Below, piece after piece: positions 1,244 through 38,880 of a DNA stretch of 38,880 bases (position 1 is the first letter of the stretch; each line of letters opens with the position of its first letter). The notes under the pieces were generated by a model. The model saw nothing but the letters and a program-made list of their open reading frames with translations. It was not told where the DNA came from and made no database searches. A program made the translations under genes and the position numbers. The stretch spans positions 1-38,880 of the IMG/VR virus record IMGVR_UViG_3300031772_003842. One strand, given 5' to 3'. This DNA comes from a virus.

Positions 1244-1312
1244 CTATGGGAAAGAAACAAACAATATGAAAGATTTAATTCCATTCTACATTTTAGGATT
1301 TTTAATTTGGGA

Positions 1313-2089
1313 ATGTCCAACAGTAACATATCAGTCATAATTCCAACCATGACCGGTGGGCTTTCACACCTTGCCGGACTCATGCCAACTCTGGCGCCAG
1401 AGAATTTGGATGTAGTGATAGTTGACAACGGATCCCGGGATGGGACCACTAATTTCCTGTCCCAATATGAATGTACTCTTCGGATCAACAAAACCAATCT
1501 GGGTTTTTCCCGGGCGAATAACCAGGGGGCTAAACTGGCTCAGGGAGAATATCTGTTATTCCTGAATAATGACACCCAAGTTATCCACGGCTTTGCTGAA
1601 GAAATGCGCCGGACGTTCGAATTGGATCCGAGAATAGGAATTGTAGGGTGTTTAATCTATACCATGAACCTTCCCCGGAAGGTGCAGCACGCCGGTATCT
1701 GCTTCACCCAGGACTATGTTCCCTATGAGCTGGGTTTACCAATCCCCTCAGTGGCGCCGGGAATCCTGAACAATGATCCCCGGGTGTCTATGGTCCACGA
1801 AGTTCCGGCGGTCACGGCGGCTTGCATGATGGTGAAGAAATCTGTTTTCGAGGAGTTGGGAGGATTCGATGAAGCCTATATCAACGGCTGGGAAGACACC
1901 GATTTGGTCCTGAAGGCCCGCGAGCGGGGTTACAAAGTCTGGTATACTGGAAAAACATATATTACCCACAAACATTTTGGATCTATGGGCAGAATGAAAT
2001 ATGAAGGACAAAACAGAAACAGGTACGACGAAATTTGGGTCAACTCCGGACGAGCTAAAAAAATATTAGGAGAATTCAGACATGCTTGA
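1313..2089 (+). CDS. GT2 family glycosyltransferase, rhamnosyltransferase-like (258 aa)
   Basis: A GT-A fold family 2 glycosyltransferase, expected to move a sugar from a nucleotide donor to an acceptor glycan in the cytoplasm. Visible marks are an N-terminal IIPT strand, the donor-binding motif VDNGSRDGT, NLGFSRANNQG, a metal-site strand LLFLNNDT (NND in place of the usual DxD), and the acceptor-site block GGFDEAYINGWEDTDL with a later histidine pair in THKHFG. These resemble the WbbL/RfbN rhamnosyltransferase branch. An in-frame TTG at 1307 lies 8 bases after AGGA (1295-1298) and could be the start instead of the ATG at 1313. It overlaps the following methyltransferase by 8 bases. This is the first gene of a coupled sugar-modification operon. 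Confidence 0.9.
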   Translation: MSNSNISVIIPTMTGGLSHLAGLMPTLAPENLDVVIVDNGSRDGTTNFLSQYECTLRINKTNLGFSRANNQGAKLAQGEYLLFLNNDTQVIHGFAEEMRRTFELDPRIGIVGCLIYTMNLPRKVQHAGICFTQDYVPYELGLPIPSVAPGILNNDPRVSMVHEVPAVTAACMMVKKSVFEELGGFDEAYINGWEDTDLVLKARERGYKVWYTGKTYITHKHFGSMGRMKYEGQNRNRYDEIWVNSGRAKKILGEFRHA

Positions 2090-2621
2090 AGCAATAAAAC
2101 CAATTGGAGAAGGCAGGTATTTGGACCTGGGATGCGGGACCAATAAGCGGTCTAATGCCTATACTGGAATTGATATTGATAAATACGACGGAGTAGATAT
2201 TGTAATGGACTTGCGATTCAATCCGATCCCCTACAAAGATGGGCAGGTGGACGGAGCCTTCTCATCCCACTTTCAGGAGCATTTAACTTTCGAAGAAAAC
2301 ATATACCTGTTCAACGAGGTATACCGCGTCCTGAAACCCGGGGCTTTGTTCGAGGTCATAGTTCCGCATGGTTTTTCATACGCCGGCATGGTGGACCTAT
2401 CCCACAAGACATTCTGGACGGAGGATACATTCGGTTACTTCTCCCCGGAGAATAAATACTTCTATTCCTGGTTCTATGAAAGGGAAGGCCAGCGGGTGCC
2501 GGTTATCAACAAGTGGAATGTAGAAAAAAATGACAGTACCCCGCCCTGGGAATACACAAAGGAAGGGTGGTTGACATTGAAACTAAGAGAAATACATGCG
2601 TTTTTGAGGAAACTGCCATGA
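2082..2621 (+). CDS. SAM-dependent class I methyltransferase (179 aa)
   Basis: A Rossmann-fold methyltransferase of the Methyltransf_11 type. Motif I is LDLGCGT (residues 14-20), followed by an acidic residue after strand 2 (GIDID, about 30-33) that should bind the ribose of S-adenosylmethionine, and an EHL motif near residue 66. The LKPGALFEV segment is the usual post-motif strand. AGGAGA lies 8 bases before the ATG. The gene overlaps the glycosyltransferases on both sides, including an ATGA overlap with the next. A sugar O-methyltransferase is the most natural role in this context, but the substrate cannot be read from the sequence. Confidence 0.85.
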   Translation: MLEAIKPIGEGRYLDLGCGTNKRSNAYTGIDIDKYDGVDIVMDLRFNPIPYKDGQVDGAFSSHFQEHLTFEENIYLFNEVYRVLKPGALFEVIVPHGFSYAGMVDLSHKTFWTEDTFGYFSPENKYFYSWFYEREGQRVPVINKWNVEKNDSTPPWEYTKEGWLTLKLREIHAFLRKLP

Positions 2622-3472
2622 TAGCAATTGTTATCCCTACCAGAAACCGGGCAAACAATTTGGATGTAGTCCTCCGGGCTTTGGCAGACCAGTCGGCAAG
2701 TTGGGATAACTACGAAGTAATTGTTAGTGACGATCATTCGAACGATGGGACTTACAATGTTTGGGATAGGTACGCTGCCCAACCTGGAACCCACTTCAAG
2801 TATGTCAACAACAATACCAAGCCGCATAGTTGGAACGCTTCGGTTCCCCGGAATTTGGGAGCTTTCATAGCGGATCCCCAGTGTACCGCTTTCTGGTTTG
2901 TGGACTCGGATATTGTTATGCCGCATCACGCTGTAGCTACTTATATGGAAGACCTGGAAAGGAAACCGGACCGGGTAATTATCGGCTCATATGATTTCTA
3001 CAGAAAAGACAATGAGGTAATTGCTGTTCCGGATGTTCGCAATACCAAGTTCGAATCTGTTGGAGTTGATGAGCTTTTCAGTACCGTCCATGACGGCCTT
3101 GCATGTTTCGGTGGCAACATAGTTATACCGCGTCACATATTCTGGGATGTAAAAGGATTTTCAGTTGATACCCATATTGGTCTGGAAGACGGAGATATGG
3201 GACTGAAGTTGTGGAAAAGGCAAACAAACTTCAGTTACGACAACCGGGTCCGGGGGAAACATCTCTGGCACGAAACACCACCCGACCGCTTCCCGCCGGA
3301 CATGAAGGACCATATTGATAAACTAAATATGAAACACTTCGGAACCAAGGATCCGGACTATGGCATTATCGAGGCCAGCCGGGAAACATATGCCAGTTGG
3401 GGAATCACCGGCTGGAATCCGCCTCCGGAATGGGTTAAAATGGGCTTTGGTATGGAGGTAAATAAGGTATGA
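2618..3472 (+). CDS. GT2 family glycosyltransferase with DSD motif (284 aa)
   Basis: The ATG at 2618 overlaps the previous stop as ATGA and is preceded by GAGGAA at good spacing. An upstream in-frame GTG at 2567 lies inside the methyltransferase gene and is less likely. The protein starts directly with the GT-A strand IAIVIPTRNRANN, then VSDDHSNDGT, then FWFVDSDIV (the DxD metal site), and later an ED block (GLEDGDMGLKLW) that would supply the catalytic base. This gives a complete family 2 glycosyltransferase core. The last bases overlap the epimerase start (ATGA). Confidence 0.88.
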   Translation: MIAIVIPTRNRANNLDVVLRALADQSASWDNYEVIVSDDHSNDGTYNVWDRYAAQPGTHFKYVNNNTKPHSWNASVPRNLGAFIADPQCTAFWFVDSDIVMPHHAVATYMEDLERKPDRVIIGSYDFYRKDNEVIAVPDVRNTKFESVGVDELFSTVHDGLACFGGNIVIPRHIFWDVKGFSVDTHIGLEDGDMGLKLWKRQTNFSYDNRVRGKHLWHETPPDRFPPDMKDHIDKLNMKHFGTKDPDYGIIEASRETYASWGITGWNPPPEWVKMGFGMEVNKV

Positions 3473-4512
3473 AGATTCTGATTACCGGGGGAGCAGGGTT
3501 TCTGGGCAGTAATATCGTATTGAAAGCATTGGAAAGGGGTCATACGCCGGTGGTCATGGACAACTTTGTCAGGAAGGGGTCCGATAATAATGCCAAGATT
3601 TTATCTGAAAAGCATGGAGTCCAGATAGTTCACGGAGAAACCAGGATAGAGGATGACTGGAAACAGTTCAAGGACATTGACGCCATTGTTCACCTGGCCG
3701 GCCAACCCGGAATCCCTAAGTCGATGGAGAACCCCCGCCTGGACTTTTCGGTTAATGCCGGAGGGACACTGAACGCTTTAGAACATGCAAGGTCTTTGGG
3801 AAATATCCCGGTGGTCTATGCTTCAACAAACAAAATTTATTCGGATGCCATAAACGGAATTCCCCTGGTAGAAACGGAAACCCGGTACGACTTGTCTAAT
3901 CTTTCAGGGTTGGGATATTCCCAGAAGGGAATATCTGAAGACTTCCCAATGGATTCTTCCGGAGAACATCCCCACTCACCCTATGGGGTTTCCAAGGCAA
4001 CTGGTGACTTACTTTGCCAGGAGTGGTATCACGCTTTCGGAGTTCCTACAGTAGTTTTCCGGATGAGTTGTATCTATGGCCTATTCCAAAACGGAGTATC
4101 CGAACAGGGATGGACCGACTTCTTCATCCGGCAGCGGATTCTGGGAGACAATAAATTGATTTTCTATGGCAACGGTAAACAGGTCAGGGATTGTCTGTTT
4201 GGGGACGATGCCGCAGATGCCTATATTACCGCCCTGGAAAAGATAAATATTGCCAAGGGTAAGGTGTTCAACCTGGGTGGAGGGAAATTTAACACGTCAC
4301 TGATAGAGTGGGTAAACATTATGAATGAGTACGATGAAGAGAAGGGTAAGATGGAAATATCCTACGCTGACTGGCGGCTGGCGGACCACCGGCTATATAT
4401 ATCAGATACGACTAAGATTGAGAAAATTCTTGGTTGGAAAGCTACTACGGATATCAGAAGTGGAATTGAACGGATAGTTCAAGCGTACAAAAATAATTTC
4501 TATGAGACTTGA
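3469..4512 (+). CDS. NAD-dependent sugar-nucleotide epimerase, CDP-paratose 2-epimerase-like (347 aa)
   Basis: An extended short-chain dehydrogenase. The NAD-binding motif GGAGFLGSN is at residues 7-15, the catalytic serine/threonine lies in YASTNKIYSD (about 117-126), and the YxxxK pair is Y172/K176. The segments RMSCIYG, EQGWTDFF and GKQVRDCLF match the CDP-paratose 2-epimerase (CDP-tyvelose epimerase, RfbE/Tyv) branch better than the UDP-galactose or dTDP-glucose branches. That enzyme interconverts CDP-paratose and CDP-tyvelose through a C2 keto intermediate. No other 3,6-dideoxyhexose gene is in the window, so the substrate would have to come from the host. The exact substrate is an inference. 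Confidence 0.85.
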   Translation: MKILITGGAGFLGSNIVLKALERGHTPVVMDNFVRKGSDNNAKILSEKHGVQIVHGETRIEDDWKQFKDIDAIVHLAGQPGIPKSMENPRLDFSVNAGGTLNALEHARSLGNIPVVYASTNKIYSDAINGIPLVETETRYDLSNLSGLGYSQKGISEDFPMDSSGEHPHSPYGVSKATGDLLCQEWYHAFGVPTVVFRMSCIYGLFQNGVSEQGWTDFFIRQRILGDNKLIFYGNGKQVRDCLFGDDAADAYITALEKINIAKGKVFNLGGGKFNTSLIEWVNIMNEYDEEKGKMEISYADWRLADHRLYISDTTKIEKILGWKATTDIRSGIERIVQAYKNNFYET

Positions 4513-4960
4513 TTTGGGAGGCGGTCTGGCTCCTACCCCAGGCCATGTCAATATTGACATTGTTGGATCAGCCGATATCCATTGGAACCTTAACAAGGGA
4601 CTACCGCGACAAAAGATATTCCAGATGATGAAAGAGGGAGAAGTGGTCGAAGGAATCCGGGCGCTGCACGTCATAGAACACTTGGACTCAATCATTCCCC
4701 TAATGAATCATTGTTATGAAATTATGGCCCCCGGATCTGTCCTGGAAATATCCACGCCATACGCCGGAACCAACCAGTACTGGCAAGATCCCACCCACAA
4801 GCGGGGTTATGTGGAAGAGTCGTTCTTATACTTTTCCAAGGACTCACCCTACAGAAAAGAGCAGGACGAGTATGGTATTTACGCCCGATTCGAAATAGTT
4901 TCCTGTTCACGGGGGACCGGGCCGGATTACTGGCAGTTATTTGTTAATCTGAAAAGATGA
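4502..4960 (+). CDS. Short SAM-dependent methyltransferase with DPTH motif (152 aa)
   Basis: It begins inside the end of the epimerase gene (11-base overlap) and directly at motif I (LDLGGG), so the domain has almost no N-terminal extension. NIDIVGSADI supplies the acidic ribose-binding position, and HVIEHLDSI is the conserved EHL motif. The segment ISTPYAGTNQYWQDPTH is shared closely with the methyltransferase at 29726-30229 on the other strand, so the two are paralogues of one subfamily. The likely role is methylation of a sugar or another small acceptor in the same pathway. It ends in an ATGA overlap with the next small gene. Confidence 0.8.
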   Translation: MRLDLGGGLAPTPGHVNIDIVGSADIHWNLNKGLPRQKIFQMMKEGEVVEGIRALHVIEHLDSIIPLMNHCYEIMAPGSVLEISTPYAGTNQYWQDPTHKRGYVEESFLYFSKDSPYRKEQDEYGIYARFEIVSCSRGTGPDYWQLFVNLKR

Positions 4961-5208
4961 GCGCAATAGTACAACATATTCTACGGCCCCCAGACGGGGA
5001 AGTTTACATCTTACACTTCAAAGACAATGCAGACAAACAAGGGATAAGAATTCATAACAACGGCCAGGAAATGAAAATTACGGATATTATAATGGCCAAG
5101 GTCCGAGGCAAGAATAACTACATAATGGTAGAAATTATCAAAGGAAAAGACGATCAGTTAATAGTTCCCAAGGCGGGGCAGAAGTTACCAGCTTTCAAAC
5201 CAAAATGA
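4957..5208 (+). CDS. Small hypothetical protein in the glycosyltransferase operon (83 aa)
   Basis: ATGA overlaps at both its start (4957-4960) and its end (5205-5208) make it a coupled member of the operon rather than a chance frame. It is a beta-rich, basic protein with no cysteines, signal peptide or membrane segment. Alternating hydrophobic stretches such as EVYILHF and YIMVEII suggest a small beta-barrel or sandwich. No family is recognised and I infer no function beyond association with the sugar pathway. Confidence 0.6.
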   Translation: MSAIVQHILRPPDGEVYILHFKDNADKQGIRIHNNGQEMKITDIIMAKVRGKNNYIMVEIIKGKDDQLIVPKAGQKLPAFKPK

Positions 5209-6056
5209 AAACACTGATTGTCTATAGTGAAGTATCTGGTTTCGCCATTCAGATTAAGAATCATATATTTAGTGCCTTAAAGGAATTATCAGTCGAGACA
5301 AAGGAGTGCTACATAGAACAGGTAAGTCAGGCGTCTGAGGCTTTTCAGCCAACCATGCACCTATTCCTTCACCACGGGCGGAAACTTTATGAACACCTGG
5401 ACCAGATCAAACAACTCAAAGGCCATAAGATGCTCTGGACGATGGAGGATCCATACGAATCAGATGTTACTTTTGACATGCTGCCACACTTCTACTACAT
5501 ATTTACTTCGGATGAAAACACTTCATTCGCTCTGAAAAAGGCGGAACCGGACCATAAAATATTCTTTGTCCCCCATGCCTGTAACCCAAAGGTTCATAAA
5601 CCTATGGACATAACCTACGAATACCGGTCGGATATTTGTTTCATTGGCAATGCTTTTCCTTCCAGGTTAAAGTGGTTCCAGGAGCATGCTAAAGAATATA
5701 AAAATAAGAAGGTAACAATTATTGGAGTGGGATATCGCGGCCTGGACGGTTATCAACACCAAAGGATTATCCACGACCATGTTCACGATCCGGATGCCCA
5801 GAGGTATATTAACGGGGCTACACTGGTTCTTAATCTTCACCGGCAGAATGAAGATTTGGACATGGCCAATAAGCGGAATATTGTGGCCAGCAGTTTTAAT
5901 AATAGGTACTATGAAACATGGGCATGCGGCCGGCCCCAGTTAGTTATTGGAAGAGGAAACCAATTTTATTGGAAAGAGAAGTATCGGACAGCTCACAAGT
6001 TTCATTCATACAAACAGAGGTTAGTTGACTATTACATCCCCCTGCTCAACCTATGA
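5205..6056 (+). CDS. CgeB-like glycosyltransferase (283 aa)
   Basis: Resembles the CgeB/Glyco_trans_1_2 group of GT-B fold proteins. The visible landmarks are LWTMEDPYESD (about 77-87), YIFTSDE, FVPHACNPKVH, the strand DICFIGNAFPSR that opens the C-terminal domain, and the donor-site region NNRYYETWACGRPQL. It differs from the surrounding GT2 enzymes in fold, so the pathway combines two glycosyltransferase architectures. It is somewhat short compared with typical CgeB proteins. ATGA overlaps couple it to both neighbours. Donor and acceptor are unknown. Confidence 0.8.
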   Translation: MKTLIVYSEVSGFAIQIKNHIFSALKELSVETKECYIEQVSQASEAFQPTMHLFLHHGRKLYEHLDQIKQLKGHKMLWTMEDPYESDVTFDMLPHFYYIFTSDENTSFALKKAEPDHKIFFVPHACNPKVHKPMDITYEYRSDICFIGNAFPSRLKWFQEHAKEYKNKKVTIIGVGYRGLDGYQHQRIIHDHVHDPDAQRYINGATLVLNLHRQNEDLDMANKRNIVASSFNNRYYETWACGRPQLVIGRGNQFYWKEKYRTAHKFHSYKQRLVDYYIPLLNL

Positions 6057-6892
6057 AAGTTTCAGTTGTCACTTGTGCCTGGAACCGGGCGATTCAAACC
6101 GGGTATGGCCTCAGGTCGATAATGGTTCAAGATGAACCGCCGGATGAAATTATCCTGGTTGATGATGGGTCAGTTGATGATATCGGACATGTGGCAGTGG
6201 AACTTGACGGGCTGGCAAAGGAAAAAGGAATTACTTTCGACTATATTTATCTTAATCACCCCGAAGCGAGGATCTCTTCGTTTCCCCGGAATGTTGGATT
6301 GAGAAACGCCAAGCATGAAGTAGTTATCTTTACCGAGCCGGAATGTCTTCATGTCGGAAATACCATTAAGCAGATTAAAGATGCGATTGCTAGCAAACCC
6401 GAAGAGGTTCCGCTAGCAACCCAGATATGGACGGTGGGACCGGCAATCTGGAAAGAGACAGCAAGAGACAGGGATGATCTTCTGATTCATCCGGCGGCGC
6501 TTCTCAATCATCCATATGCCCAACTCACCGACGATCACAATATGCAGAATACCAAAGCGCCGGATTCGGATTGGGGAATTACCGGATCCATCAACTGCTA
6601 CGCTGGATGTTTATTCGGAGCCTACAAAAAAGATCTGATGCTGCTTCAGGGATTTGATGAGGAATTCGTCGGTCATGGATTCGATGATTTTGATTTGTTC
6701 GAAAGGTTCAAACTGATTGGACGGCCAATAGTCCCGCACAATGAAATTGTAGTGATTCACCAATGGCATGAGAAAAACTATCCCTACAACATATATGATT
6801 GCGCTAAGATAAACGGTGAACGGTCGGCTGAACGGGTTAAGCAGGGAGAATACCGGGCCAATATAAACAACCCAAACTGGGGGATAAAATGA
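6053..6892 (+). CDS. GT2-like glycosyltransferase with EPE in the metal-site position (279 aa)
   Basis: N-terminal SVVTCAWNRA and ILVDDGSVDD (DDGS at about 37-40) are typical of the GT-A nucleotide site. PRNVGLRNAKHEVVIFTEPE places E95-P96-E97 where DxD normally sits. The C-terminal block GFDEEFVGHGFDDFDLFERF is the usual acceptor/base region. The gene is paralogous to the next one (6889-7707), which also carries EPE. The start overlaps the previous stop (ATGA) and the end overlaps the next start. It may be an active enzyme of an xPE-type GT2 branch, since one acidic metal ligand is retained, but activity is not proven by sequence alone. Confidence 0.85.
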   Translation: MKVSVVTCAWNRAIQTGYGLRSIMVQDEPPDEIILVDDGSVDDIGHVAVELDGLAKEKGITFDYIYLNHPEARISSFPRNVGLRNAKHEVVIFTEPECLHVGNTIKQIKDAIASKPEEVPLATQIWTVGPAIWKETARDRDDLLIHPAALLNHPYAQLTDDHNMQNTKAPDSDWGITGSINCYAGCLFGAYKKDLMLLQGFDEEFVGHGFDDFDLFERFKLIGRPIVPHNEIVVIHQWHEKNYPYNIYDCAKINGERSAERVKQGEYRANINNPNWGIK

Positions 6893-7707
6893 AAACCACA
6901 CTACTACTTACCACCTACAACCGCGGAGCCTTGTTGGGAAATTCCCTGGAAAGATTGACCCGGCTGACTCTTCCGGATGAAGTCCTGGTAGTAGATGATG
7001 GTTCGGAAGATGCCACTGAAGTAGTGGTCAAGAGTTTCGAGGGCCGGCTGCCTATCCGGTATATTTACAATCACAATCCCAGCTGGACTATCTGTTCTAT
7101 GGCCCGGAATATTGGGGTTAAGAATTGTATCGGAGACATTATTATTACCGCTGAACCTGAATTACTTTTTGTCACCGACCTGATCCCACAATTTCTACAG
7201 GACCACAAAGAAAATCCGGACCAGATAATTTCTGCCGGGACAATTTACCACATGCAACCACGCGCCGACTTCCATCCTGGATGGACCACTGATCCGGTAA
7301 CGGCCCTGAAGGATTGTACTGTGGAGGATTACCAGATTGAACCACGCCCTTATAAAATGTCGGGTTTGGTAAAGACGGTTAATATGCAAGCGACTTTCGC
7401 TGCTTTATATCTGAAGAAGTGGATTGAGATGGTCGGCGGATGGGACGAAGAGTTCCCCGGCGCATGGGGATTTGATGATATTGACCTATGCACCAGACTT
7501 CGGATTAAAGGTATTAATCAATTCATAGACGCCAAAGTAGAAGCGATTCATCAATTCCACCCACACCTACCGCCACATGTTCAGGGTCCGCAGATGTTTG
7601 CCAATGAGAAACACATGATTGATAAAAAGTTGAACGACCAGAGTCCGGATAATCCGATGTTAATTGCTAACCAGGGAAGGGAGTGGGGTAAAATAACTCC
7701 CAGATGA
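6889..7707 (+). CDS. GT2-like glycosyltransferase, paralogue with EPE motif (272 aa)
   Basis: It starts in an ATGA overlap with its paralogue. The N terminus has LLLTTYNRGA and VVDDGSEDAT. MARNIGVKNCIGDIIITAEPE carries E89-P90-E91 in the DxD position. GWDEEFPGAWGFDDIDLCTRLRIKG is the acceptor/base block and is followed by HQFHPH. It is similar to 6053-6892 along its full length, which suggests tandem duplication followed by divergence, probably to transfer different sugars or to form successive linkages. It ends one base before the next ATG. Confidence 0.85.
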   Translation: MKTTLLLTTYNRGALLGNSLERLTRLTLPDEVLVVDDGSEDATEVVVKSFEGRLPIRYIYNHNPSWTICSMARNIGVKNCIGDIIITAEPELLFVTDLIPQFLQDHKENPDQIISAGTIYHMQPRADFHPGWTTDPVTALKDCTVEDYQIEPRPYKMSGLVKTVNMQATFAALYLKKWIEMVGGWDEEFPGAWGFDDIDLCTRLRIKGINQFIDAKVEAIHQFHPHLPPHVQGPQMFANEKHMIDKKLNDQSPDNPMLIANQGREWGKITPR

Positions 7708-7708
7708 T

Positions 7709-8335
7709 ATGAATTACAAAGAGATTCAGCAGGAGGAAGCAGCAACTTGGTTAATAGAGGACGAAAAACTTCGAAGGGAAAAGGCTATGCGGGAAAGTAT
7801 TCGGTATCCACTACTGAAGAAACAAATGGGCTTAGACTATCTGGACACTTCAGAAATGGAGGTCTGGGATATCGGCGCCGGACCATTGGGGGGAGTTAGT
7901 TCGGTCTTGAACTGTAAGATAGCTTACAGATTTGACCCCCTTACCCCAGACTACAAAAAGTATTTTCCTTGTATTGGATACCGCGACGATCCGGCAGAAA
8001 AATTAGGAGACAGGTTGGCCACTCCGGATTTGGTTATAGTCACCAATGCTCTTGACCATTTCGAATACCCGGAGAAATTTCTTCAGGATTTGGTGGACTA
8101 CATGAAACCTAGTGGATACTTCGCCCACCTGCATGCAATAGACAATGCCATATCTCACCCGCATCCGGCCCATGTCCACAACGTCAATCCGGAACTATTT
8201 CGCCGTTATCTGGAACCAGTATTTGAAACTTGTTGGTATACCGACTTCCAGCATGACGGTTTAGTCTACGGATGGAAGAGGCAACCGGCGTTCAGTGGGT
8301 TATACAGAAAGGTGACTGGTTATGGAAAAAGATAG
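7709..8335 (+). CDS. SAM-dependent methyltransferase-like protein (208 aa)
   Basis: After a helical N-terminal stretch of about 45 residues comes EVWDIGAGPLGGVS, a divergent motif I. YRFDPLTPDY gives an acidic residue after strand 2, and TNALDHFEYPEKFLQDLVDYMKPSGYF corresponds to the EHL/post-motif region with DH in place of EH. This is the third methyltransferase of the operon. The C terminus (HDGLVYGWKR) looks complete. The last 14 bases overlap the small gene starting at 8322. The substrate is unknown, and a glycan acceptor is likely from context. Confidence 0.75.
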   Translation: MNYKEIQQEEAATWLIEDEKLRREKAMRESIRYPLLKKQMGLDYLDTSEMEVWDIGAGPLGGVSSVLNCKIAYRFDPLTPDYKKYFPCIGYRDDPAEKLGDRLATPDLVIVTNALDHFEYPEKFLQDLVDYMKPSGYFAHLHAIDNAISHPHPAHVHNVNPELFRRYLEPVFETCWYTDFQHDGLVYGWKRQPAFSGLYRKVTGYGKR

Positions 8336-8540
8336 AAAATATAGTTGGTTGATAAGATATCCCGCAAGATTCTTCCAAGATCAAGAACATGTCGAATCTA
8401 CCAGACAACACTGGCAAGGTATTGTGGGATTTGCAATAACCACGATATTTGACCCAGCAGAACAATCGTACAATTTTGTTATTGATGACACCAAACCAGT
8501 CAAAAATGAAACACGCATCAATTTGCCTCCTAGCGTATAA
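8322..8540 (+). CDS. Small hypothetical protein (72 aa)
   Basis: It fills the otherwise empty 170 bases between the methyltransferase and the last glycosyltransferase, with AAAGGTGA a few bases before its ATG. It has no recognisable domain. Aromatic and hydrophobic residues are spread evenly and there is no clear membrane segment. It overlaps the following glycosyltransferase by 35 bases if that gene starts at 8506. I consider it a probable but unproven gene. Confidence 0.45.
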   Translation: MEKDRKYSWLIRYPARFFQDQEHVESTRQHWQGIVGFAITTIFDPAEQSYNFVIDDTKPVKNETRINLPPSV

Positions 8541-9171
8541 GCGCCAGGAAATGCTGAAGGAATGTATTGAAAGCCTGAAGGCCAATACAGACTACCCTCA
8601 TACCATCATCGTCAACCTGGACGGTGGTGATTTATATAATTATCGGTATCTAATTCAACTTCTGGAAGCCAAGCGGATCAGTTCCCTGATTCTGAATGGC
8701 GGACAGAATCGGGGAGTCGGCCGGTCACTTGCCAACTGCATAGGACTTTGTGAGGGAGATTACATATTCAAGGCTGACACTGATTTGGTTTTCAAACCGG
8801 GTTGGTTATCCCAAGCAATAATTGTCCTGGAAAAGAATCCGGATGTCGGAGCCGTTTCGCTTTTCAACTACCGGGACATTGATCCGAATGACACCCGGTT
8901 CAATATCCTCGAGGAAAGAAGTGACTGTCGGATAGTCGATGACTTTGTTTCTTCGGTGTATGGTTTCCGGAAAGAGGATCTGGCGGTTGGCGGCTGGCAA
9001 GAGGACGACGGGTTCCACACAAAACTGAAAGAGAAATATGGAAAACTTGCATTGACGAAAAAAAATACATGTCTTAACCAGGGATTCGGGGTTGATAAGT
9101 CGGTTTATGTCTCCGGAACGATGGATCATCCCTACAAAACCCCCACTTTTGACACTCCATTGGTGTTTTAG
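8506..9171 (+). CDS. GT2 family glycosyltransferase with DTD motif (221 aa)
   Basis: The ATG at 8506 places the first GT-A strand (HASICLLAYKRQEML) at the N terminus. Longer in-frame starts at 8449 (TTG) and 8485 (ATG) add only residues unlike the family. IVNLDGGD is the nucleotide-site strand, GGQNRGVGRSLANCIGLCEGDYIFKADTDLVF contains a canonical DTD, and LAVGGWQEDDGFHTKLKEKYG is the acceptor/base block. It is the last gene of the rightward operon and ends 69 bases before the convergent end of the late operon. No clear terminator hairpin is visible in that gap. Confidence 0.85.
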   Translation: MKHASICLLAYKRQEMLKECIESLKANTDYPHTIIVNLDGGDLYNYRYLIQLLEAKRISSLILNGGQNRGVGRSLANCIGLCEGDYIFKADTDLVFKPGWLSQAIIVLEKNPDVGAVSLFNYRDIDPNDTRFNILEERSDCRIVDDFVSSVYGFRKEDLAVGGWQEDDGFHTKLKEKYGKLALTKKNTCLNQGFGVDKSVYVSGTMDHPYKTPTFDTPLVF

Positions 9172-36421: not shown

Positions 36422-36616
36422 ATGAAAGCATACTATACAGAATATCAAGTACTCGGAAACTATGGCGAGGGATGGGAGGAAGTAATCACCGAAGAAACCC
36501 GGACCGAAGCCCTGGCACGTCTGAAAGAATACCGGGAAAATGAGCCGGAATACGCTCATAAGCTAAAAGTTGTCAGATTTTACCGGACAATTGACATGAT
36601 CCGGGCCAATGCTTAA
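36422..36616 (+). CDS. Small hypothetical early protein (64 aa)
   Basis: A small acidic protein (YYTEYQVLGNYGEGWEEV, then a helix TRTEALARLKEYRENEPEY, then a beta strand HKLKVVRFYR). This beta-alpha-beta-like order resembles small ferredoxin-like or phage regulatory proteins. It is the last rightward gene. A 27-base tandem duplication begins at its stop codon. Function is unknown. Confidence 0.6.
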   Translation: MKAYYTEYQVLGNYGEGWEEVITEETRTEALARLKEYRENEPEYAHKLKVVRFYRTIDMIRANA

Positions 36617-36664
36617 ACGGTGGCCGACGGTTTGGGTGCTTAAACAGTGGCCGGCGGTTTGGGT
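36611..36664. repeat. Tandem 27-base direct repeat at the end of the early operon
   Basis: Two copies (36611-36637 and 36638-36664) differ at two bases. Each begins GCTTAAAC and ends GGTTTGGGT, and each contains a TAA in the frame of the upstream gene. The first copy includes the real stop codon. It fills the gap between convergent genes. It may be a recent duplication, a protein-binding site, or a weak bidirectional terminator, although no clear hairpin is visible. Confidence 0.75.
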
Positions 36665-36665
36665 G

Positions 36666-36842
36666 CTAAATTTCCTCACCCGCTGTGCTGATACAGTCAT
36701 TACATAACACCTTGTCGCCTTGTATAGACAACTCATTCAGTGACCGCCACTGCCCACATGCTTCACACTTCGACTGTCTGTACTCAACATCAATACCAGC
36801 CTTCCCCCTCACCCATCCCTGAATTCCGCCATGTTTTTGCAT
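36666..36842 (-). CDS. Very small zinc-finger protein (58 aa)
   Basis: A 58-codon frame with ATG at 36842, preceded by AGGGAG. It has C26-x2-C29 (KCEACGQW) and C47-x2-C50 (LCNDC), a CxxC-x17-CxxC zinc finger, and ends with TAG at 36666. Its start is about 20 bases after the stop of the upstream gene, so it completes the leftward replication operon. The regular cysteine spacing and upstream ribosome binding site support it as a real gene despite its size. It could bind DNA or a partner protein. Confidence 0.6.
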   Translation of the reverse strand: MQKHGGIQGWVRGKAGIDVEYRQSKCEACGQWRSLNELSIQGDKVLCNDCISTAGEEI

Positions 36843-36861: not shown

Positions 36862-37137
36862 TCAGCCTGTGTCTTTATGTTCGTCCTCCCAGCTTCTCAT
36901 TGCCTGTAAATAATCAATGCCAAATGCAAATAATGCCATACTGAATTCCCTCCACCCTCCCAGCTTCTCTAGCTCATTATATATATCTTCAAGATAAGGC
37001 AGCAAGTATCCGTTCCAGCGCTCCGGGTGCTTTTCCTGCGGGTGCGCTTCCGCCCAGACATGCGCGTTATACAGCTTAACGAACAGCACCTTGATAGACG
37101 GTAGATTTTTATTATCCATATCCTTAGAAGAAATCAT
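36862..37137 (-). CDS. Hypothetical protein following the iteron region (91 aa)
   Basis: A helical, aromatic-rich protein (VKLYNAHVWAEAHPQEKHPERWNGYLLPYLEDIYNELEKLGGW) without cysteine pairs. The frame continues upstream to 37194 through the iteron-like block, but starts there would translate repeat DNA. ATG at 37137 or 37119 is more likely, though neither has a good ribosome binding site. It is downstream of the replication gene and next to the candidate origin, so a replication role is possible. No family is recognised. Confidence 0.5.
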   Translation of the reverse strand: MISSKDMDNKNLPSIKVLFVKLYNAHVWAEAHPQEKHPERWNGYLLPYLEDIYNELEKLGGWREFSMALFAFGIDYLQAMRSWEDEHKDTG

Positions 37138-37149
37138 ATCCCATAATAA

Positions 37150-37308
37150 CAGTTGCAAAACAACAGTTGCAATATATACATATTGCAATTGCAACTGTTG
37201 TTAGCCTACTAGTTATGGCGATGGTTGCAATCATTGCAACTGTCAATAACAAACATGGATATATAGCCATTTCCCAATAGTTGCAATTTGCAACTGTCAT
37301 TGCAACTG
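37150..37308. repeat. Iteron-like block: nine TTGCAA sites, six with full TTGCAACTG (candidate origin or operator)
   Basis: Full 9-base copies of TTGCAACTG (either strand) start at 37150, 37164, 37189, 37234, 37288 and 37300. Shorter TTGCAA cores occur near 37183, 37225 and 37281. The block is AT-rich, lies between the Toprim/RecA ATPase gene and the next gene, and has copies in both orientations. Such repeated sites are typical of replication origins bound by an initiator, or of arrays for a repressor or transcription factor. The spacing is not constant, which leaves both readings open. Confidence 0.7.
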
Positions 37309-37313
37309 TTATT

Positions 37314-38880
37314 TTACTCGTCATTTTCGTTATTTTTGGCTGTCTGTCCCATAGTAATCGCTGCATAATACTTTTCTCTGCCCTTTTTAATCTCTTCAAT
37401 CATACCGTCTTCTGCCATTCTTTGAATTGTGGTTATAAACGTCCGCTCCGATATCCCGGCATTGGTGGCGGCGGTCAGTAACTCTTGCCGGCTGGCTGCC
37501 GGGACATCCGCCAGGATATTGTTAATTATCTCCTGGACCTCTTCTTTCTTTGTCTGATCTTCCCCGGCCACAATGCCTACATATTCGAAGCCTGTTACCT
37601 TTGTGGTGGTGTCCGGGAGGGTTTCTACTTTCATTCTAATCATAAACTTATCAAGCCTCTGGGCGTCCCGGGCCTTTGTCTGCTTCAATGTCATTTCTGT
37701 TTTACTCTTGGCTACAACTTCCAGTCTGAATTGAGTGTTGGTCTGGGCGTTTATATTCGATGATCCTCTCATTCGCTGACTGTCGGTTCTGTACGCCCCC
37801 TGGATCGGCTTATTCTCATGGTGGAGGACCAGGATGGCCTTCTGGGGGAAGAGGTTTCTTACCGCATCGAAGAAAGCCTGGGTATCCTCGGCTTTGTTTT
37901 CTGTGCCGACCATCAGGTCCACAAATGAATCAATGATTATCAGGCTGATATCTTCGGCAGATACTATAGATGATAGCGAATTGGCAAATTGGCTCATTTC
38001 GCCCCGGGAGTCGACCAATTGCAACTTCTCCGGATACTTCAGCCAGAAGATATTCGGGCTGGTGATTGATAGCCCCAGGAGGCGCTTTGCGGTCATGGAT
38101 TCCGGGTTCTCCTTGTCTATGAACAGCACCTTGGCCGCCTTTGGGACTTTGAACTGCCCCAGCCAGGGTTCTCCGCGGGCTACGGCGTCAGCGATACTTA
38201 ATGTTATGAAACTCTTCCCGGTCCCTTCACTGCCGTATATAAAACAAAATCCTTCTGAATAGATTATCTTTTCCATGATCCAGGGTTCTTCGGTGAATTT
38301 CTTTTGTGATAGCTCTTCGGCGGATATCAGGCTGAACTCTTCCGGGAGATAGTGCTGTTCCCATTCGGTTTTGGTCATGGCGGATTTTAGCAGATCAATG
38401 AATTGCTTCTTGTCATGGCCGTGGTAGAAGTAGTCACACACGTCTTTAATGCCTTCGGGCCAGATAACCGCCCGGGCCTCAGGCATCAATTCTAATAGTT
38501 TAATCGTGCCTGACCTACCAGCAGAATCGTTGTCATATGCAATAAAAATCGTTTTGCCTTCCAGGAGTTCTGCCCATTCTTTCATAAATGTCTTGGATCC
38601 ACCTGTAGAGGAAGCGGAAGGCACTCCCTCCTGATTTAACTTCATGCAGTCCACTTCGCCTTCCGAAATTACCATGTAGGACTTCTCCTTAACTGCTGGG
38701 TAGTTAAACAGGGTGGCATGCGCGCCGCTGTCATAGCGGTATTTTTGTGATTCCGGGTTCTCCGGATCGTACTTCAGGTTTCTGTGTTTGGCGAATACAG
38801 CCTTGCCCCGCTCGTCCAGGACCGGAATGTGGAGTTCGTTTTCGTCCCATGATAGCTTGAATTTATCAATCGAAAACGAA
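37314..38880 (-). CDS. Toprim primase/RecA-type ATPase replication protein (partial, 521 aa visible)
   Basis: The reading frame stays open from a stop at 37314 to the right edge, so the gene is truncated at its 5' end. A Met at 38675 is internal, because it lies inside the Toprim motif. The visible domains are a pre-Toprim region, a Toprim core (ISEGEVDC at about 71-78 with E73/E75, and AYDNDSAG at about 114-121), an AAA/RecA-type ATPase (Walker A GSEGTGKS at about 216-223, Walker B LIIIDSF), and a C-terminal winged-helix-like region. This is the plan of fused primase/helicase-type phage replication proteins. It is probably the main replication enzyme, and a zinc-finger or primase head may lie outside the window. 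Confidence 0.88.
   Translation of the reverse strand, partial: SFSIDKFKLSWDENELHIPVLDERGKAVFAKHRNLKYDPENPESQKYRYDSGAHATLFNYPAVKEKSYMVISEGEVDCMKLNQEGVPSASSTGGSKTFMKEWAELLEGKTIFIAYDNDSAGRSGTIKLLELMPEARAVIWPEGIKDVCDYFYHGHDKKQFIDLLKSAMTKTEWEQHYLPEEFSLISAEELSQKKFTEEPWIMEKIIYSEGFCFIYGSEGTGKSFITLSIADAVARGEPWLGQFKVPKAAKVLFIDKENPESMTAKRLLGLSITSPNIFWLKYPEKLQLVDSRGEMSQFANSLSSIVSAEDISLIIIDSFVDLMVGTENKAEDTQAFFDAVRNLFPQKAILVLHHENKPIQGAYRTDSQRMRGSSNINAQTNTQFRLEVVAKSKTEMTLKQTKARDAQRLDKFMIRMKVETLPDTTTKVTGFEYVGIVAGEDQTKKEEVQEIINNILADVPAASRQELLTAATNAGISERTFITTIQRMAEDGMIEEIKKGREKYYAAITMGQTAKNNENDE

Follow-up and report, generated by a model that had tools for sequence, protein, structure and literature searches.

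A repeat array after a Toprim-AAA_25 primase-helicase gene as a candidate replication origin of a tailed phage

Described systems and the locus compared

In the SaPI Rep and SCCmec Cch2 systems, the helicase gene is directly followed by short repeats, and the C-terminal domain of Cch2, taken alone, binds the repeats downstream of its gene; for SaPI Rep, opening at the repeats by a self-loading initiator-helicase was reported, and for SCCmec Cch2 it was proposed (PMC7581432). The P4 alpha protein unites a Toprim primase, a helicase and an origin-repeat-binding winged helix, while RSF1010 has an iteron origin with priming stem-loops on which a RepA-type helicase acts, where RepA, RepB' and RepC are separate proteins and RepC reads the iterons (PMC4234260). 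For pRN1 ORF904 and phage BIP-1, a stem-loop was described right after the gene of the primase/SF3/winged-helix protein, with no iterons and with specific binding not detected (PMC4234260). For mycobacteriophages with a different RepA, the cis sequences were presumed to be within repA or next to it (PMC7157519). Downstream iterons are already described for SaPI/SCC elements and a downstream stem-loop for pRN1/BIP-1; no description of the downstream-iteron layout for AAA_25 phage helicases was found among the open-licence papers searched.

The locus studied here belongs to the IMG/VR virus record IMGVR_UViG_3300031772_003842, which was analysed in full (38,880 bases, hereafter the window). As in SaPI and SCC elements, short repeats directly follow a helicase gene. 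The SaPI/SCC helicases carry a C-terminal DNA-binding domain; the tail of the window helicase gave weak winged-helix matches under the curated cut-offs. The SaPI/SCC helicases are of the DUF927 or D5/Primase_Cterm type, unlike the window protein with its AAA_25 and Toprim_2 domains. A Toprim primase within the helicase protein (Toprim_2, 5e-10) is shared with P4 alpha. The helicase of P4 alpha belongs to SF3, in contrast to the RecA-fold AAA_25 of the window. A RepA-type AAA_25 helicase (1.1e-28) is shared with RSF1010, but the three separate proteins there correspond to a single one here, comprising primase, helicase and a putative reading tail. A long stem-loop directly after the replication gene (15-bp arms, DNA z -9.0) resembles pRN1 and BIP-1, whose protein has an archaeo-eukaryotic primase and an SF3 helicase in place of the Toprim_2 and AAA_25 domains of the window protein. 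The window probably holds a variant of the SaPI/SCC scheme in which the self-loading initiator is an AAA_25 helicase.

The array and its surroundings

Each end of the record falls within a gene, and no terminal repeat was found in the 38,880 bases. Circularity was rejected because of the missing terminal repeat and because the frame created by joining the ends resembles the antisense of a + strand gene; the record is a fragment of a virus genome. The virus is a tailed phage, with the terminase large subunit, the portal and further structural genes on the - strand. Positions 1307-9171 hold + strand genes for glycosyltransferases, methyltransferases and a nucleotide-sugar epimerase, a long block for a phage record of ~39 kb. 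A tandem pair (93% alike) of the 27-bp unit TGCTTAAACGGTGGCCGACGGTTTGGG was observed at 36610-36663, where convergent genes meet.

The features of the array and its two flanking genes are as follows.

36862..37119, - strand, small gene with no assigned function (ATG at 37119; alternative in-frame ATG 18 bases upstream)
37143..37172, - strand, promoter-like TTGCAA-N18-TATTAT (9/12, second hexamer preceded by TG); overlaps sites 1 and 2
37145..37313, no strand, whole array, candidate iteron origin; its ends form a perfect 14-bp inverted repeat (37145-37158/37300-37313)
37149..37158, + strand, ACAGTTGCAA site 1
37159..37202, no strand, hairpin from sites 2 and 3 (perfect 15-bp arms, 37159-37173/37188-37202)
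37163..37172, + strand, ACAGTTGCAA site 2
37183..37188, no strand, palindromic TTGCAA core only
37189..37198, - strand, ACAGTTGCAA site 3
37225..37230, no strand, palindromic TTGCAA core only
37234..37243, - strand, ACAGTTGCAA site 4
37277..37286, + strand, ATAGTTGCAA, degenerate site with one mismatch
37288..37297, - strand, ACAGTTGCAA site 5
37300..37309, - strand, ACAGTTGCAA site 6
37314..38879, - strand, Toprim-AAA_25 primase-helicase gene, proposed initiator; 5' end cut by the record end
37362..37493, - strand, helicase C-terminal tail, proposed array reader, weakly matched by winged-helix profiles

Profile searches matched the helicase to Toprim_2 (5e-10) and to AAA_25 (1.1e-28; RepA-type, RecA-fold). 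Its tail matched the winged-helix profiles PaaX (7e-5) and Penicillinase_R (1e-3) weakly, under the curated cut-offs, and structure predictions for the helicase and its tail were of low confidence, too poor for use. Family searches gave no match for the small gene at 36862-37119; the neighbouring small genes had no match to an initiator family, in a record that is cut beside the helicase gene.

The earlier note had claimed six 9-base copies and three cores, in both orientations, at 37150-37308, and the count over the whole record confirmed this: the six copies of TTGCAACTG (two on the - strand, four on the +) all fall inside that interval, against 0.27 expected, and none of 100 shuffles reached six. 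TTGCAA occurs nine times there; the sequence is palindromic, so no orientation can be assigned to the three extra cores. The true repeat unit is the 10-base ACAGTTGCAA, which a loose AAYR precedes; it occurs six times in the array and nowhere else in the record, while the reversed control of this 10-mer has no copy in the record. One of the three cores, at 37277-37286 (ATAGTTGCAA), counts as a seventh site that departs from the unit at one base. The array naturally extends over 37145-37313 (169 bp), bounded by the perfect terminal 14-bp inverted repeat AATAACAGTTGCAA/TTGCAACTGTTATT, and its right end adjoins the helicase stop codon (37314). The placement between the Toprim/RecA ATPase gene and a small gene was likewise borne out (37314-38879 and 36862-37119).

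A scan of the whole record ranked the array as its strongest repeat cluster. None of 500 dinucleotide shuffles of the 194-bp gap matched its best 6- to 9-mer counts, and its AT content of 66% is among the top 0.9% of record windows. Compared with shuffles, the array folds strongly (RNA z -6.1; single-stranded DNA z -9.0), largely because sites occur in both orientations. Observed directly in the window are the array, its absence from the rest of the record, its place beside the helicase gene and the arrangement of its inverted repeats.

GC skew, proposed earlier as a check, lends the origin no support: skew follows the gene strand in a record that is a fragment, and it is uninformative for the window for these two reasons. 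Among complete relatives (see below), phages 1N2-2 and CGphi29 have their skew minimum no more than about 2.5 kb from the array, which does not hold for CRP-811.

Arrays after related helicase genes

Single-protein searches of viral contigs with the helicase, the small gene and the terminase found no close relatives of the window phage, and the origin idea was therefore tested on more distant phages. A terminase-alignment search returned distant phages only; ten of these records were searched whole, and one of them carries a primase-helicase, of T7-like type, with the next gene following immediately and no array. A DNA pattern scan gave 88 viral matches, mostly chance occurrences within coding sequence. 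Two of the viral records, L039 (whose helicase is an AAA_25 protein) and L083, had TTGCAACTG-like arrays just past the helicase stop codon; as they were found by the motif, its likeness is no proof, and later selection was made by protein. Scans with the inverted pattern yielded 0 and 5 matches in viruses, and about 80 isolated palindromes in genomes.

Eighteen annotated phages were selected by one criterion, resemblance of their helicase to that of the window or of L039. In eight, the gap that immediately follows the helicase gene holds a significant cluster of short repeats, of seven motif types in all:

Roseobacter CRP-811, CTACAAA
Rhizobium 16-3 and RHph_X2_25, GCGTGACA
Idiomarinaceae 1N2-2, CGGTACA
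Salicola CGphi29, GGGGACA
Vibrio/Shewanella 1.076, CGGACA
MT836267, AGGGACG
Faecalibacterium FP_Lugh, AAAATAGC

The cluster of BcepGomr was marginal, and none was found in this gap in 9 of the 18 (GB2A, Dove, Mae-JY30, HippoPololi, MakoManhole, Lauer, Dulem virus 35, ctfpg957 and ct76p945). All 11 genomic copies of CTACAAA in CRP-811 lie inside the gap. The MT836267 protein matches the window helicase over 69% of its length (9e-14), and its repeats begin a few bases from the helicase stop. In Rhizobium phage 16-3 (L338:2569-3003, after p101), 14 CGTGACA copies in both orientations, unannotated in the record, occupy the gap following a RecA-family ATPase gene. The Toprim-AAA_25 phage ct76p945 (MW202475.1, L095:13004-13160) has, without iterons, a long inverted repeat GGCTATAATC...GATTATAGCC directly after its helicase gene, a layout that recalls pRN1/BIP-1.

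A larger set was obtained by a protein search of IMG/VR (AAA_25), which gave 61 relatives of the L039 helicase (loci L270-L330), the L039 family. With an array defined as at least four copies within 1 kb after the gene, 52 of the 55 loci with enough downstream sequence had one. Six motifs were found (TGCAACA, TGGATCA, TGCTTCA, TGCTTCC, TGCACCA and TGCCACA), and the region after the helicase gene was the best repeat window of the locus in 48 of 50.

Across 35 non-redundant proteins of this family, the motif was coupled to the helicase tail. Of the 20 columns most associated with the motif, 18 lie in the last 75 residues, which hold just 64 of the 560 variable columns; as columns and sequences are non-independent, the association figures of this paragraph rank positions and are not exact probabilities. 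Tail distance was correlated with motif difference when the core was controlled (partial r 0.79; 0 of 2000 permutations as high), core distance was not when the tail was controlled (partial r -0.04), and the gene beyond the array gave -0.13 with core and tail both controlled. Nine loci have an extra gene between helicase and array, and their motif is still the one typical of their tail class. The coupling is not supported as an effect of mere physical linkage: the gene beyond the array does not track the motif, so that adjacency alone is no explanation, and the extra-gene loci also disfavour it. These sequence comparisons are most simply read as binding of the array by the helicase tail. Between L289 and L280, helicase identity is 95% in the core and 31% in the tail, and the downstream motifs differ; here, tail and array appear to have been exchanged together.

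The window tail falls outside all six tail classes and is no closer to tails of the TGCAACA class than to others, so that the motif letters shared with that class are probably a coincidence.

In 44 of 50 array-bearing L039-family loci, the array is followed by a GC-rich palindrome (loop TTTA or CTTTAG), which frequently stands between inverted copies of the motif; in the window, the 15-bp hairpin formed from two sites is seen instead. Similar GC-rich palindromes were seen in the gaps of CRP-811, RHph_X2_25, 1N2-2, CGphi29, 1.076 and BcepGomr. The recurrent palindrome lies toward the far end of the array, with a TTTA, CTTTAG or TATATA loop and no T-tract.

Probable origin and rival explanations

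We consider it likely that the repeats of the window array are origin iterons which the adjacent helicase recognises through its putative winged-helix tail. A candidate origin bound by this tail, as the earlier note had suggested, is the best-supported reading, and the support comes from other phages, through arrays at the same position after AAA_25 genes in unrelated phages and through the motif-tail coupling of the L039 family. The window record itself is a fragment, its helicase tail is weakly matched to winged-helix profiles and the protein searches found no close relatives. Half of the annotated relatives compared have no array following the helicase gene, which counts against the origin. 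The alternative binders named earlier, the small proteins at 36666 and 36862, are indicated by no result.

For the window phage we infer tail binding, origin activity, loading and priming. The C-terminal winged-helix tail of the primase-helicase would bind the ACAGTTGCAA sites beside its own gene, and the protein would assemble on sites of both orientations, open the AT-rich, hairpin-prone stretch and load itself as the replicative helicase, while its Toprim domain would prime. Repeat binding beside its own gene, combined with helicase and primase in one protein, is best explained as origin opening. Binding to the sites may additionally control the small downstream gene (36862-37119).

The main rival is an operator cluster, in which a phage regulator, or the helicase as a pure autoregulator, controls 36862-37119 and no origin function exists. 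The gap does separate two same-strand genes, and the promoter-like sequence just ahead of the small gene overlaps sites 1 and 2, so that an operator role could coexist with an origin. This promoter match is not above the number expected by chance in the region, though, and nine sites in 169 bp are long for a single operator. In the L039 family, moreover, the motif tracks the helicase tail and not the gene beyond the array, and the array sits after an extra gene in the nine loci described above. We regard a pure operator as unlikely. Less probable still, in our estimate, is that the inverted repeats act as a structured RNA or single-stranded DNA hairpin (a priming signal, an attenuator or a 3' end) and not as protein-binding words. 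The z-scores for folding, the stem-loop that pRN1 requires after its replication gene (PMC4234260) and the GC-rich palindrome accompanying most L039-family arrays are in its favour, but foldability is a consequence of sites in both orientations, the motif copies of the relatives are mostly direct repeats spaced by about 10 bp, no Rfam match was obtained and terminator calling found none in the gap.

A miniature palindromic mobile element, inserted by chance after the helicase gene, would account for a 169-bp unit with perfect 14-bp terminal inverted repeats. No sequence similar to the array was found in phage or plasmid records, the pattern matches in genomes are isolated palindromes without additional sites, and no target duplication was recognised, which together leave this explanation highly improbable.

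Returning to the origin with tail-read iterons, we judge a wider generalisation to be slightly favoured: that many phage AAA_25 primase-helicases are one-protein initiators with tail-read downstream iterons, that tail and array are exchanged as a cassette, and that the window is the Toprim version. The motif-tail coupling and the apparent cassette exchange are a more interesting result than the window array itself. If arrays directly after RepA-type helicase genes are origins, many origins of environmental phages could be read from sequence alone. The six motifs coupled to tails would supply a data set on how winged helices choose a DNA word. If the cassette reading is true, near-identical helicases acquire different origin specificities by exchanging tail and array, and this would hint at how separate origins are maintained in related phages.

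Two further repeats were noted among the searched sequences. A AAACAGTTGCAAGAACGTTCTTGCAACTGTTT-like palindrome occurs repeatedly near contig ends of Flavobacterium sp. ov086 and F. collinsii (L191, L192, L197, L200, L203 and L208 among others), which suggests a repeated element there. In another phage group, four 15-bp tandem repeats containing CAACAGTTGCAAAAATA lie between small genes (L046, about 4564-4640; also L087 and L021).
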